NCBI GenBank assembly: GCA_024698585.1
Contig: JAILRB010000028.1
Coordinates: 1-64,000 of the forward strand
Origin: Eubacterium sp.
GTDB taxonomy: Bacteria; Bacillota; Clostridia; Lachnospirales; Lachnospiraceae
DNA: 64,000 bases
Direction: 5' to 3'
How positions within the stretch are numbered: position 1 is the stretch's first letter; every line of letters begins with the position of its first letter. This document shows positions 2,320 through 24,627 of this stretch, one piece after another. The notes beneath the pieces were generated by a model. The model saw only the letters and a program-made list of their open reading frames with translations. It was not told where the DNA came from and ran no database searches. The translations under genes were made by a program, and so were the position numbers.

Positions 2320-2350
2320 AATTAGTTGATTTATAAAACAAATTAGTTGA
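2320..2350 (+). repeat. 10-bp direct repeat with 21-bp period before the GTPase-NYN gene
   Basis: AATTAGTTGA occurs at 2320-2329 and again at 2341-2350, so the copies are 21 bases apart, about two helical turns. The second copy ends 10 bases before the start codon. The arrangement suits a dimeric regulator, but no known box is recognised. Confidence 0.55.
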
Positions 2351-2360
2351 AAGAGGAATT

Positions 2361-4976
2361 ATGAAACAAATAACATTAGGAATCTTAGCGCATGTAGACG
2401 GTGGGAAGACCACATTGTCGGAGTCGTTATTATATAATACAGGGAAAATAAAGGCGTTAGGACGAGTTGATCATAAAAATACATATTTAGACAATTTTTC
2501 CATGGAGAGAGAACGAGGTATTACCATTTTTTCAAAACAGGCTGTTTTTGAATATGGGGATACAACGTTTACTCTGTTGGATACTCCGGGACATGTGGAT
2601 TTCTCCACAGAAATGGAACGTACCCTGCAGGTGCTTGATTATGCAATTTTGATTGTCAGTGGCAGCGAAGGGGTTCAGGGGCATACGGAAACTCTTTGGA
2701 AACTTTTGAGAAAATATGAGATTCCTACATTTATCTTTGTAAATAAAATGGATATGCCAAGAACCAATAAGGAATTTAGCAGTGAAAACATGCGTGTTTG
2801 TCTGGGGGACGGGATCGTGGACTTTAGTCTTGAAAAACCAGACTATGAGCAAATTGCCATGTGCGATGAACAGGCATTGGAATATTATATGGAACATGAT
2901 ACTCTGACAGATGAAATTCTTTGTAGTCTGGTTCAAAACCGTCAATTGTTCCCGTGCTATTATGGTTCTGCGTTAAACAATAAAGGCGTCATGGAATTAT
3001 TGGAGGGTATTTGTCGGTACAGCTATGAGCCGGTTTATTCGGATGATTTCGGAGCCAAGGTATATAAAATCACGAAAGATTCTGCAGGAAACAGATTGAC
3101 TCATATGAAAATCACTGGAGGCAGTTTAAATGTTCGAGATGAAGTGAAAGGAATATCTAATGGTGAGGAATGGGCGCAAAAGGTAAATGATATTCGAATT
3201 TATTCCGGAGAAAAGTATTCTTTGGTTCAAACAGTGAATGCCGGGGAAATCTGTGCAGTTGCCGGATTGGAGGAAACCTATTCCGGACAAGGACTAGGTT
3301 GTGAGTCAGAGACTGAAGAACCGGATTTGAAACCGGTTTTGTCTTATAGTGTCTTGTTGCCGAAAGGTTGCAATGTCAATCAAGTGTATCAGCAGTTAAA
3401 GGAATTAGAAGAAGAGGATCCAACTTTAAATTTACGATGGAATGAAGAAACTTCTGAAATACATGTCAGGGTTATGGGACCGATTCAGATTGAGTTGTTA
3501 AAAACTCAGATTCAGGAACGATTTGGAATAGAGGTTTCTTTTGGAACAGGGAAGATTTTATATAAGGAAACAATTCTAAATACCGTGGAAGGTGTAGGGC
3601 ACTTTGAACCTTTGCGCCATTATGCAGAAGTCCATTTATTATTGGAGCCGGGAGAACCGGGAAGCGGAATTACTTTTGAGTCAAAAGCAGACAGTAATAG
3701 TCTGTCCAGAAATTGGCAACGTCTAATTATGACTCATTTGGCAGAACGGGAGCATCGTGGTGTGTTAACCGGAGCACCGGTTACGGATATCCATTTTACA
3801 TTAATTGCCGGAAAAGCGCATTTGAAACACACGGAAGGTGGCGATTTCCGACAGGCGACATACAGAGCTGTTCGTCAAGGACTAAAAAAGGCGGAAAGCG
3901 TTTTGTTGGAACCTTATTATGATTTTGTTCTGGATATTTCTTCGGAACAGGTAGGACGAGCTATGACAGATTTGGGAAATATGAACGGGCATATGAATCC
4001 ACCGCAAATTGTGGGAGAAAAAACCAGACTTACCGGATATGCTCCGGTTTCTGAAATTGGAGACTATCAGATTCAGGTTAATGAATATTCTCACGGGAAG
4101 GGGACATTGACCTTGAAATATAAAGGGTATGCACCATGCCATAATCAGGAACAGGTGATTGAGGAAAAAGGATACGACAGTGAAAAGGATATGAGAAATC
4201 CTACCGGTTCTGTTTTTTGTACACATGGTGCCGGATTTTATGTTCCTTGGGATGAAGTGGAACAGTATATGCATGTGAAGACGGATTTAAAATCTAATCA
4301 ATCTTTTGATGTGGTACCGAAAATTTCAGAGGAAATCAGACCGAAAAAAGAAAAGGATACTTATGCTACGGATCAAGAACTTATGGCGATTTTCGAGAAG
4401 ACATTTGGACCGGTAAGGCGAAAACGATATCAGGAAAAGCGAAGCAGTGTTTATGAAAAACAAAAGAAACCGGTTTATCGGAAAAAGGGACCTAATTTAC
4501 CGTCTTGTCTTCTGGTAGACGGTTATAATATCATTTTTGCATGGGAGGAACTGAAGACGCTTGCAGCAAAAAATATTGATGCAGCCAGGGACAAATTATT
4601 GGATATGCTGTCGAACTATCAGGGATATACCGGTACAACAGTAATCGCAGTGTTTGATGCATATAATGTGAAGCGTCATAAAGAAACTATTTACCGTCAC
4701 CAAAATGTATACGTTGTTTTCACAAAAGAAGCGGAAAGTGCGGATATCTACATTGCAAAAACAACGCATCAATTGGCAAGTAAATATAAAATCACCGTCG
4801 CAACATCGGATGCTTTGGAACAGTTGATTATTATGGGACATGGAGCTCTTCGAATGTCAGCAATGAACTTTTATGAAGAGTACCAAAGGGTGGAAAAAGA
4901 AATATCCGGATATCTGAATCAAAAGAATCAATTGGGAAATTATGTTGTTTCCGAGGATGAACTCTTAAACGGATAA
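2361..4976 (+). CDS. Tet(M)-like translational GTPase fused to a Rae1/YacP-like NYN endoribonuclease domain
   Basis: The 871-residue protein has two recognisable parts. Residues 1 to about 650 follow the EF-G/ribosomal-protection architecture: P-loop AHVDGGKTT (10-18), RGITI (52-56), DTPGH (74-78, with the catalytic His) and NKMD (128-131), then domains II to V. A basic linker (about 660-712) follows. Residues 715-850 match the NYN fold of Rae1/YacP: LVDGYN with D720, VFDAY with D766, SADIYI with D795 and ATSD with D817 keep all the acidic residues. Rae1 is known to cut mRNA in the ribosomal A site. The combination suggests a GTPase that brings a nuclease to the ribosome, but this is inference. 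Classical tetracycline-resistance proteins are about 640 residues and lack the nuclease. Ribosome-binding site GAAAGAGGA; convergent 12-bp overlap with asnB. Confidence 0.85.
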   Translation: MKQITLGILAHVDGGKTTLSESLLYNTGKIKALGRVDHKNTYLDNFSMERERGITIFSKQAVFEYGDTTFTLLDTPGHVDFSTEMERTLQVLDYAILIVSGSEGVQGHTETLWKLLRKYEIPTFIFVNKMDMPRTNKEFSSENMRVCLGDGIVDFSLEKPDYEQIAMCDEQALEYYMEHDTLTDEILCSLVQNRQLFPCYYGSALNNKGVMELLEGICRYSYEPVYSDDFGAKVYKITKDSAGNRLTHMKITGGSLNVRDEVKGISNGEEWAQKVNDIRIYSGEKYSLVQTVNAGEICAVAGLEETYSGQGLGCESETEEPDLKPVLSYSVLLPKGCNVNQVYQQLKELEEEDPTLNLRWNEETSEIHVRVMGPIQIELLKTQIQERFGIEVSFGTGKILYKETILNTVEGVGHFEPLRHYAEVHLLLEPGEPGSGITFESKADSNSLSRNWQRLIMTHLAEREHRGVLTGAPVTDIHFTLIAGKAHLKHTEGGDFRQATYRAVRQGLKKAESVLLEPYYDFVLDISSEQVGRAMTDLGNMNGHMNPPQIVGEKTRLTGYAPVSEIGDYQIQVNEYSHGKGTLTLKYKGYAPCHNQEQVIEEKGYDSEKDMRNPTGSVFCTHGAGFYVPWDEVEQYMHVKTDLKSNQSFDVVPKISEEIRPKKEKDTYATDQELMAIFEKTFGPVRRKRYQEKRSSVYEKQKKPVYRKKGPNLPSCLLVDGYNIIFAWEELKTLAAKNIDAARDKLLDMLSNYQGYTGTTVIAVFDAYNVKRHKETIYRHQNVYVVFTKEAESADIYIAKTTHQLASKYKITVATSDALEQLIIMGHGALRMSAMNFYEEYQRVEKEISGYLNQKNQLGNYVVSEDELLNG

Positions 4977-21912: not shown

Positions 21913-24627
21913 ATGAAATTATTAAAAAACAAAATTGTTGCTCTTTCATTAACAGCTGCGATGGTGTTTAGCGTTTACTCACCGAATCCGTTAAATACAA
22001 CAGCTGCTACAGGAACAGTTCCAACAAATCTGAGTTTTTCAGTTGAAAATGATGGTAGTGCCACCATTCGCTGGAACAGTGTTAGTGGTGCAACTTCATA
22101 TGTTATTTATGAAGCAAAAAGCCGTTTTGCTAATTATGAAGTAGTTGCTACTGTTGATGGCACATCTTATACGGATGATACATACACAGATGGTTATTAT
22201 AAAGTTGCAGCGGTTGTAAATGGTTCAACAAAAGAAAAGTCTGAAGCAATTTCATATGAAATTCAGACATTTGGTACGGATACATACATCTTTGAAGATA
22301 CAGATACAACCAGTGAGATTCAGAATGTCATTGATACAACATATAAACTTACCGGAAGTGGTGAAGGACAGTTCTGCAGTCAGAGAACAGCGTTTATGTT
22401 TAAACCAAGTTCCAAGACATATGATGTAACTGCAGATGTAGGATTCTATACTCAGGTTTCCGGTCTTGGTATTTCACCGGATGATGTTACCGTTAAGCAG
22501 ATTCAGTCAAAAGCACGTTGGATGGTTGGAAAGAAGTACGATGGCTCTGTAAACTACAGTGCATTATGTAACTTCTGGCGTGAAGTGGAAAATATGTCTA
22601 CTCCAGCCAATGATACTGTATGGGCTGTTTCACAGGCTACATCTATGAGAAGAATGGATTTAACCGGTTCTTCAAAGAAGGTGAATGAGTATTCTTATAA
22701 TGCGAACTCAAAGAAATGGGAAAGAAGCGGTTCACATGTGGACCCTAATAATGGAATTTTATATCTCCATGATGAAGGTGGATACGCCAGCGGTGGATTT
22801 TTAGCAGATACAAAGATTGCCACAAAGGTTGAAAGTGGATCTCAGCAACAGTGGTTAAGCAGAAATATTGTATCCGGTGCTAAGGCATACTCGGAAACAG
22901 ATGATAACTATTCAGCTGCTGTTTGGAACAATGTTTTAGTAGGTTGTAAAACATCCATTAAAGAATCTAATTGGCCACAGGGTTCCAGCACAGTTGTGGA
23001 TAAGACTCCTGTGATTGCTGAAAAGCCATTTATGATATACAATTCCGATTTAAATGAATATGGAATTGTTGTTCCTAAAATCAAGAAAGATACTCAGGGT
23101 GTTTCTTGGGAAAACATGACAGAAGAAGACTATACTTATATTAGCATTAAGGATTGTTATGTTGCAAAACCTACGGATTCTGCAGCAAAAATCAACGAAG
23201 GAATGGGTGGAAAGAAAGCCTTGATCTTAACACCTGGTATTTATGAAGTAGATCAGCCAATTGAAGTAGAACAGCAGGATATGGTTGTTCTCGGACTTGG
23301 ACTTGCAACCATCAAGCCAACCAAGGGAAACCAGTGCATAAAGGTTGGAAATTCAGAAGGTGTTCGCATTGCGGGTGTATTATTTGATGCAGGTCGTGTT
23401 CAGTCCGACGTTTTACTGACTGTTGGAGTAAAAGGAATGGATGCTGATCATTCAGCAAATCCTGTTGTATTGTCTGACTGTTTCTTCCGTGTAGGTGGTG
23501 CGGATAATGCAAATTGCAGAACTAAAACTTGTGTAATCATTAATACCAATGATGTAATTTGTGATAACTTCTGGGTTTGGAGAGCAGACCATGGTGCAGG
23601 TGTAGGCTGGGATAAAAATACTTGTGATAATGGTGTAATCTTTAACGGAAGAAATATTACTGCTTACGGCTTAATGGTTGAACATTTCCAAAAGGTTCAG
23701 ACACAGTGGAATGCAGACGGTGGAAGATGCTTCATGTACCAGAGCGAACTTCCGTATGATATTAAGAGCCAGAGTGTATGGAATGAACCAGGTTCTTATG
23801 GATATACAGATTATAAAGTTGCAAATAATGTTAAGACTCATGAAGGTGTAGGAATTGGTGTTTACTCTTGCTACCAGAAAGCACAGTGCTTCTTGAAATC
23901 AGCAGTTACTTGTCCAAATACTCCAGGTGTTAAGTTTACAAATGTTTGTACTTATTCCTTAGTTGGAAATGGTGGAATTGATTACGTAATTAACAATGCA
24001 GGTTATTCTGTATTAAAGAGTAGTGAAATGAGTAAGGTAATGTCTTACTGCAATGGTGTTGCAAAGGCTGATCGTGAAGGAAGTAAAGCGAAGAAGCATT
24101 TATTCTCAAGTAACATTTCCATTACAGGAAAGAGTCGTTATGAAAGCACCTTTAAAAAGAGCTATACAGGAAAGAATATTTGTCCTACAGTTACAGTTTC
24201 TTATAGTGGAATTACATTAAGACCGGGTGTGGATTATACTGTTTCTTATGCAAACAACAAAAATATCGGAACCGGTAAAATCACTATCAAAGGTGCAGGA
24301 CAGTTTGAATTCTTAAGCGGAGCTGAAGTATATAAGTTTAAGATTGTTCCTGCTAAGGTTGTAATTGCCAAGAAGAAATCCAAAGTTACAAAGAAGGCAA
24401 TTAAATTGTCTTGGGGTAAAGTCAAGGGCGCTAAGAAGTACGAAGTAAAATATTCTACAAAGAAGAGCTTCCCTAAGAAGAAAACAATTACAAAGATTGT
24501 AAAGAAAAATAAAGTTACAATTAAGAGAAAAGAAAAAGGAAAATATTTTGTGAAGGTTCGTGCGTTCAAGAAAGTTGGAAAGAAGAACTTTTACGGAAGC
24601 TTTAGTAAAAAATTTATAGCGAAATAA
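21913..24627 (+). CDS. Secreted parallel beta-helix protein, GH55-like, with Fn3 modules
   Basis: The 904-residue precursor has a signal peptide (VALSLTAAMVFSVYSP), an N-terminal Fn3 module (about residues 35-115) and a large central region ending in a right-handed beta-helix with segments such as DNFWVWRADHGAGVGWDKN, NGRNITAYGLMVEHF and WNADGGRCFMYQSELPYD. These resemble bacterial proteins related to GH55 exo-beta-1,3-glucanases that are often misnamed adenylyl cyclase. A Big-type segment (about 740-815) and a Lys-rich Fn3 module (about 820-904) end the protein. I cannot name its catalytic residues, so the enzyme activity is inferred. A beta-1,3-glucan role would fit the GH81 gene 5 kb upstream. 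The start codon follows AAAGGAAAAGGAAAG. Confidence 0.65.
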   Translation: MKLLKNKIVALSLTAAMVFSVYSPNPLNTTAATGTVPTNLSFSVENDGSATIRWNSVSGATSYVIYEAKSRFANYEVVATVDGTSYTDDTYTDGYYKVAAVVNGSTKEKSEAISYEIQTFGTDTYIFEDTDTTSEIQNVIDTTYKLTGSGEGQFCSQRTAFMFKPSSKTYDVTADVGFYTQVSGLGISPDDVTVKQIQSKARWMVGKKYDGSVNYSALCNFWREVENMSTPANDTVWAVSQATSMRRMDLTGSSKKVNEYSYNANSKKWERSGSHVDPNNGILYLHDEGGYASGGFLADTKIATKVESGSQQQWLSRNIVSGAKAYSETDDNYSAAVWNNVLVGCKTSIKESNWPQGSSTVVDKTPVIAEKPFMIYNSDLNEYGIVVPKIKKDTQGVSWENMTEEDYTYISIKDCYVAKPTDSAAKINEGMGGKKALILTPGIYEVDQPIEVEQQDMVVLGLGLATIKPTKGNQCIKVGNSEGVRIAGVLFDAGRVQSDVLLTVGVKGMDADHSANPVVLSDCFFRVGGADNANCRTKTCVIINTNDVICDNFWVWRADHGAGVGWDKNTCDNGVIFNGRNITAYGLMVEHFQKVQTQWNADGGRCFMYQSELPYDIKSQSVWNEPGSYGYTDYKVANNVKTHEGVGIGVYSCYQKAQCFLKSAVTCPNTPGVKFTNVCTYSLVGNGGIDYVINNAGYSVLKSSEMSKVMSYCNGVAKADREGSKAKKHLFSSNISITGKSRYESTFKKSYTGKNICPTVTVSYSGITLRPGVDYTVSYANNKNIGTGKITIKGAGQFEFLSGAEVYKFKIVPAKVVIAKKKSKVTKKAIKLSWGKVKGAKKYEVKYSTKKSFPKKKTITKIVKKNKVTIKRKEKGKYFVKVRAFKKVGKKNFYGSFSKKFIAK

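Follow-up and report, generated by a model that had tools for sequence, protein, structure and literature searches.

The gene at 2361..4976 on the forward strand of the window (the whole stretch of 64,000 nucleotides of Eubacterium sp. DNA that was analysed) raises the question of why a translational GTPase should be joined to a nuclease of the Rae1/YacP type, and whether the product does the work of free Rae1. Our answer is that the fusion protein is probably the sole Rae1 of the cell: an mRNA endonuclease, associated with the ribosome, that is borne by its own GTPase and replaces the free protein. The gene is a single open reading frame (ORF) with an ATG start, encoding 871 amino acids plus the stop. 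The first-pass annotation had described one protein in which an intact EF-G-like GTPase of the ribosome-protection kind is followed by a NYN domain related to Rae1, and Pfam confirmed the joining. GTP_EFTU was found at residues 4-220 (E 3.9e-51), EFG_III at 324-395, EFG_IV at 397-512, EFG_C at 514-597 and NYN_YacP (PF05991) at 717-857, the last with E 1.9e-46 and 158.6 bits, above its cut-off of 24.6; EF-G_D2 at 232-306 scored 20.8 bits, under its cut-off of 27. The G domain (residues 1-220; 2361..3020) carries AHVDGGKTT as its P-loop (10-18), DTPGH (74-78) and NKMD (128-131), and H11-D13, G15-T17, D74-H78 and N128-D131 are invariant in all 33 aligned fusions, so that the GTPase is intact as claimed. 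Domains II and III (residues 227-396; 3039..3548) were placed from Pfam, an AlphaFold model and Foldseek, followed by domain IV (397-513; 3549..3899) and domain V (514-597; 3900..4151). The front half thus has the G-domain motifs and domains II to V of an EF-G superfamily translational GTPase, with a Pfam match for domain II that stays below cut-off.

The NYN half (residues ~715-857; 4503..4931) has its best match in Bacillus subtilis YacP (5mq8/5mq9), with E 3.3e-28. The four acidic residues on which the relationship to Rae1 had been staked, D720, D766, D795 and D817, all align with D7, D53, D81 and D104 of that protein (numbering counted from the alignment), and each is aspartate in 35/35 fused and 38/38 free NYN rows.

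How often the fusion occurs and whether its carriers also keep a separate yacP, a point already raised in the first-pass annotation, was counted in 391 genomes drawn from the class, taken to be Clostridia. PF05991 matches were found in 249 of them, neither form being matched in the other 142. Frame length decided the state, at least 700 amino acids being taken as fused and at most 230 as free, and both halves were confirmed in one frame at the sequence level for 40 survey loci. Twelve frames of intermediate length were assigned by a module search, one (G332) to the free and 11 to the fusion type; seven of these 11 were cut by contig ends, three (G341, G051 and G320) were interrupted and one (G221) was assigned without upstream inspection. 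In all, 248 of the 391 genomes were placed. The fusion is widespread, being present in 140: 139 genomes had the fusion only, 107 had free yacP only and one (G330) had both, while G224, free by length, was set aside as unresolved because its NYN lies at a contig end, and one weak match (G248) was dropped. By Fisher's test, which ignores relatedness, 38.7 genomes with both forms would be expected where one was observed. Six families contain both states, and inside them the same separation was seen, with 41 genomes having the fusion alone, 11 free yacP alone and one both; in family f1 the single free-only genome is G243, whose NYN is of the fused type. The source genome of the window is 92.9% complete, and its sole PF05991 match is the fusion, with none beside its rlmB. 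These counts suggest that in 139 of the 391 genomes the fusion takes the place of free Rae1.

The place where yacP normally lies was surveyed with rlmB as anchor and probes for mrnC, sigH and NYN. Among 22 genomes with free yacP, counting G330 here on the free side, 17 had the order rlmB-yacP-sigH, two had rlmB-yacP without sigH in reach and one had yacP-sigH only; of the remaining two, G110 was broken by contig ends and G243 had its yacP elsewhere. None of 18 fusion-only genomes had a NYN match adjoining rlmB, and in nine of them (G201, G021, G348, G041, G026, G087, G331, G113 and G279) rlmB was followed by sigH with no yacP between, the two frames lying 5 bases apart in G026 and slightly overlapping in G331. 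One same-genus pair shows the exchange: G059 (free) and G201 (fusion) are colinear with 74-79% DNA identity on both sides of the site; yacP occupies the site in G059, and 197 bases without a match occupy it in G201. No GTPase match at 1e-60 was found in G059. G330 (L225, L173) carries the fusion together with a canonical rlmB-yacP-sigH, as expected of a replacement intermediate.

Two trees of the NYN domain were built, one from 35 fused and 38 free rows and one from 28 fused and 31 free rows. In the first, 37 free rows grouped together (99/99), apart from all of the fused rows and from G243's free NYN. In the second, the fused rows and three free rows from the order of the window formed one clade (99/98); the three lie at rlmB-yacP-sigH (G160), beside sigH (G262) and elsewhere (G243). 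This clade stood apart from the native yacP of families f24, f25, f29 and f55, in which the remaining members have the fusion. A single clade of fused NYNs was not rejected by the approximately unbiased (AU) test (p 0.197), a result that is no proof of a single origin. When the state was mapped on a tree of rlmB from 38 genomes, with G330 counted as a fusion genome, it changed between fusion and free nine times (7-9 over the bootstrap), at least three changes being forced by well-supported branches; as the tree rests on one gene of 243 columns and has some odd placements, such as the long row of G332, the figure of nine is rough. The grouping of fused NYNs with yacP of the window's order, taken with the repeated state changes, points to one source and repeated displacement. 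The simplest story is that the fused NYN derives from a yacP of Lachnospirales type, by one fusion in a Lachnospirales-like ancestor and later transfer, and native yacP was probably lost repeatedly. In G243, a member of the window's family (L104/L223, L199/L224), a free NYN of the fused type in a 190-residue frame occurs with a GTPase of the free type at another place; this genome may represent a fission of the fusion and possibly a natural control.

The two forms of NYN also differ at their ends. The C-terminal tail of free Rae1 was reached in 36/36 free rows and 27/135 fused rows, and so is missing in 108/135 fused rows, where reaching means ending within 8 positions of the end of a tail model that was built from the same 36 free rows, and where the 135 fused loci lean towards relatives of the window. 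The match of the window's own NYN stops at position 151 of the 176 of this model, short of the tail. Loss-of-function suppressors recovered in B. subtilis with changes in this region of Rae1 were R166P and a deletion of nucleotides 469-473 (PMC6613710). A part that free Rae1 needs thus seems dispensable when the domain is fused. Judged from the sequences, the absence of the tail looks as if the GTPase might have taken over docking.

The claim that the GTPase half is a ribosome-protection protein was not supported. A Tet-type protein with an added RNase, serving as an antibiotic-resistance factor, was suggested for such proteins by Atkinson 2015, and several observations speak for it: Tet(O) is the best solved-structure sequence match of the front half (E 1.8e-73), followed by EF-G, tet_protect (NF012153) is the best-scoring NCBIfam model, and some members are labelled 'TetM/TetW/TetO/TetS family' by NCBI. 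The score on NF012153 is only 429.2 bits against a curated cut-off of 775, however, where a Tet(M) from a relative (L204) used as a control reached 874.2; one fused and four free proteins scored 408-451 bits and an intermediate (L201) 606. By that measure, with scores far under the cut-off, a resistance label is not earned. Nor does the protein reach the cut-off for canonical elongation factor G, scoring 284.2 bits on TIGR00484 against 659.4.

Searched with a profile of the fused GTPases, 9 of 65 genomes, one of which has two copies, gave free relatives scoring 770-812 bits, against 373-386 bits for Tet-type genes and 503 and 439 for two intermediates. A tree was built from 43 of the 135 fused loci together with 11 free rows, 4 EF-G rows and two of the three Tet rows, to which the intermediate L201 was added; in it, fused and free GTPases formed one clade (100/98) that excluded Tet and EF-G, with a warning of long branches. 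The tip loops of domain IV agree with this division. In the window they read GHFEPLRHYAEV (413-424) and HLKHTEGGDFR (487-497), unlike those of Tet or EF-G; nearly all fused and free GTPases have GHFEPLRHYAEV as loop I, HxKHTxGGDFR as loop III and an extension with SVFCxHG/KG, whereas Tet and EF-G rows have other tip loops and gaps where the extension stands. The YSPVSTPADFR type of loop III found in Tet proteins is absent from the window, and position 490 is H in 43/43 fused rows, V in the two Tet rows and H in L201. It is the tip loops of Tet proteins that dislodge tetracycline, as stated in PMC4342817. The fusion occurs in 140 of the 391 class genomes, and at least 80% of the protein was found in only 2 of 72,556 plasmid records. 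A Tet-type resistance factor is therefore very improbable, and the GTPase half, going by its sequence relationships, is better placed in an EF-G superfamily lineage of its own, separate from the Tet proteins and with free-standing relatives.

These free-standing relatives bear on whether the two halves work together at all. Free GTPases of the same clade were found in 2 of 15 genomes without any yacP and 7 of 48 with free yacP, and an obligate pairing of free GTPase with free Rae1 was thus not supported. The one free row nested among the fused GTPases is a plasmid gene of Ligilactobacillus. On the Ligilactobacillus salivarius megaplasmid NZ_CP117984.1 a free GTPase (L220) stands beside a copy of rpsN and a gene for a 'putative metal homeostasis protein', neighbours that hint at a link to metal limitation. 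Database records call such genes either 'translation factor GTPase family protein' or 'TetM/TetW/TetO/TetS family'. The GTPase, for example an elongation or back-translocation factor, and the NYN domain, as an ordinary Rae1, could then act in separate reactions and be joined for co-expression only. The long tether, disordered in the AlphaFold model, would suit such a two-function protein, as would the occurrence of the GTPase without NYN whether or not free yacP is present, the separate genes for fused-type NYN and GTPase in G243 and the unfused member nested among the fused ones. It explains less readily why the fusion was kept across many families with free yacP almost wholly absent, and why 108/135 fused NYNs lack the tail, as if docking had passed to the GTPase. 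We regard it as rather unlikely and return to the reading of the fusion as a GTPase-borne Rae1.

Purifying selection acts on the fusion. The ratio of nonsynonymous to synonymous substitution rates (dN/dS) was 0.03 and 0.06 for the NYN domain and 0.06 and 0.14 for the GTPase, each computable in two of four comparisons, as synonymous sites were often saturated. Columns conserved at 97% or more, counted without L074 because the motif pattern missed that locus (it has SHVD in place of AHVD), numbered 39/117 in domain IV, the best conserved module, 47/220 in the G domain, 16/145 in NYN and 0/65 in the tether. An AlphaFold2 model built on 33 fusion sequences (mean predicted local distance difference test score, pLDDT, 78.7; predicted template modelling score, pTM, 0.60) gave the GTPase domains and NYN mostly pLDDT 60-94 per ten-residue block. 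In one Foldseek run EF-G structures led, with Staphylococcus aureus EF-G on top (E 6.2e-53), and the NYN half was absent among the 50 matches listed. Behind domain V the model shows an extension (residues 596-640, SVFCTHGAGF...YMH; 4146..4280) as folded, and then a fast-evolving, flexible tether (residues 644-710; 4290..4490) as disordered (pLDDT below 50), except for a short predicted helix at residues 669-682 (4365..4406) around DQELMAIFEKTFG. A pattern like DxELxxIF occurs there in 56/80 tethers, and E673 is invariant in 33/33 fusions; modelled as a helix, the pattern could possibly be a docking motif. Within and next to the extension, C593 and H638 are invariant in the 33 fusions and C620 and H622 nearly so (residues 593, 620 and 638 correspond to DNA 4137-4274), and H622 is replaced by K in 4 of 6 free GTPases aligned; from the alignment, these residues could form a small metal-binding or structural element.

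Factors of the EF-G family reach into the ribosomal A site with domain IV. We infer ribosome docking, A-site cleavage, a role of GTP and functional equivalence to Rae1 from the relationships described above. Where the A site of a ribosome is vacant or stalled, the five-domain GTPase would dock at the factor-binding site and insert domain IV in the direction of the decoding centre; a tether of ~65-70 residues would then let the NYN nuclease reach and cut the mRNA in the A site; GTP hydrolysis would reset the factor, and tmRNA or other rescue systems, with exonucleases, would complete the work. The 67 residues of the window's tether should be long enough for NYN to reach the A site from domain V. 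A tmRNA gene is present in the source genome, so that the cut message could go to trans-translation. More tentatively, it is possible that an unnamed lineage of translational GTPases senses the unfilled A site and delivers the nuclease in cis, the fusion having arisen once from a yacP of Lachnospirales type, spread between families and repeatedly displaced native Rae1.

A different substrate was also considered, namely that the fusion serves rRNA or tRNA processing, with the GTPase guiding NYN to precursor rRNA or to an intermediate late in ribosome assembly. The genes mrnC and rlmB serve rRNA maturation and modification. That yacP adjoins them fits this proposal, and Anantharaman and Aravind 2006, as cited in PMC4342817, suggested that YacP takes part in the maturation of rRNA and tRNA. 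Against it, published descriptions have Rae1, the studied member of the family, enter or attack the ribosomal A site (PMC12320835, PMC10100781) and attack mRNA there (also PMC6613710). Its known substrates include S1025, named in PMC11780869, and a cryptic ORF in bmrCD mRNA. We find such a processing role improbable, and A-site cleavage of mRNA by a GTPase-borne Rae1 the better account.

Several observations weigh against that account, in which docking followed by cutting is our best inference. The model, with its pTM of 0.60 and a disordered tether, gives NYN no fixed position relative to domain IV, and another ribosomal role would also fit the conservation. The mutual exclusion of fusion and free yacP partly reflects common ancestry, and G330 carries both. 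As the 142 class genomes without either form indicate, the job is not required everywhere; and since the free GTPase is about equally common with or without free yacP, the GTPase must have a role of its own. The tail is retained in 27 of the 135 fused NYNs. In the other nine of the 18 fusion-only genomes, the source genome among them, no sigH lay in the stretch examined, so that no empty site was demonstrated there; in G295 the contig ends ~520 bases past rlmB. At least three of the 139 fusion genomes (G341, G051 and G320) have the frame interrupted as assembled. Finally, no widely common neighbour gene was found across 80 loci, and the genomic context gives no functional clue.

The 80 loci come from a scan of the assembly contigs of 84,980 species with six peptide patterns, which yielded 145 confirmed relatives, the best 80 of which were analysed. 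All 80 are single frames of 815-985 amino acids with a P-loop and a NYN match, which rules out a misassembly or a curiosity of one genome, the danger attached to the original description. The nearest relative among these 80 is 98% identical and carries a Lachnospiraceae title, and the record titles of 6/80 name cultured strains; culturable holders of the fusion include Ruminococcus albus and Pseudobutyrivibrio. In a phylum draw of 398 genomes, overlapping the class draw, 29 had a match at E 1e-120 or better, which by frame length divide into 23 frames of at least 857 amino acids and 6 of 651-721. Two fusion-length frames, of 894 and 890 amino acids, were seen in G133 (61% complete), and the interrupted loci L250, L252 and L253 (in G341, G051 and G320) have their modules in more than one frame as assembled, perhaps through sequencing errors or decay of the copies. 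Recurring neighbours were asnB, dpaB-like and dpaA-like genes in 8, 8 and 7 close relatives; the largest other neighbour clusters, from 13 and 9 loci and found in either orientation, resemble common transporters. The two plasmid records are large replicons typed non-mobilizable, and of 50,697 phage records two, both unannotated faecal 'Bacteriophage sp.', held at least 80% of the protein. With so little sign of a mobile or phage element in plasmid records, phage records or neighbour genes, the view that the gene stands alone holds. Upstream of the gene, AAAGAGG at 2350..2356 (forward strand), read from the sequence, is the likely ribosome binding site. Elsewhere in the window, only a tRNA reached the gathering threshold in an Rfam scan, and a frame of 904 amino acids at 21913-24627 had no Pfam match at 1e-5.

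If the fusion works as proposed, about a third of the Clostridia drawn would run GTP-gated mRNA cleavage on the ribosome, a GTPase-coupled nuclease would join the factors acting on stalled ribosomes in common gut and rumen bacteria, and free Rae1 in other bacteria may be aided by a GTPase in trans. Entry of Rae1 into the A site is 'proposed' in PMC10100781 and A-site activity is 'shown' in PMC6613710; how Rae1 enters the ribosome is not settled between them, and the fusion offers a covalent handle on the question. Its GTPase half can be mutated separately, and its ribosome complex may be easier to trap. The tetracycline-resistance labels on some members are unsupported here, and gut surveys that rely on them might overcount resistance. 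A limited search, which did not cover the key Rae1 papers, turned up no printed account of yacP displacement, of the empty site, of where the NYN came from or of the separate GTPase lineage.

Compared with known systems, the fusion would have A-site mRNA cutting in common with ribosome-dependent mRNases of the RelE type, which have an unrelated fold and no GTPase. With Tet(M) and Tet(O) it shares an EF-G-like GTPase at ~30-32% identity; it differs from them in its tip loops, its extension after domain V, its clade and a score below the curated Tet cut-off. Closer are the free GTPases annotated as 'translation factor GTPase family protein' in Clostridia and on Ligilactobacillus salivarius megaplasmids, which share the clade and the C-terminal extension and have almost identical tip loops, but whose frames of ~640-720 amino acids hold no nuclease. 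The architecture itself is not new: 'Tet proteins' with an added YacP-like NYN in ten species of Clostridiales, very probably of the same architecture, were reported by Atkinson 2015 (PMC4342817), who classed them with Tet and surmised a part in antibiotic resistance, and the available text of that paper makes no mention of the loss of free yacP, the source of the NYN or a separate GTPase clade. Closest in presumed function is Rae1/YacP of Bacillus subtilis (PF05991), which has in common with the fusion the NYN family, the four acids and the stretches TKE..AD, TSD..EQ and G.GALR.SA. The fusion differs in that a GTPase stands in front of its NYN, that it lies outside the rlmB-sigH interval and that it mostly lacks the C-terminal tail of free Rae1; the near-exclusive occurrence of the two suggests that they do the same job.

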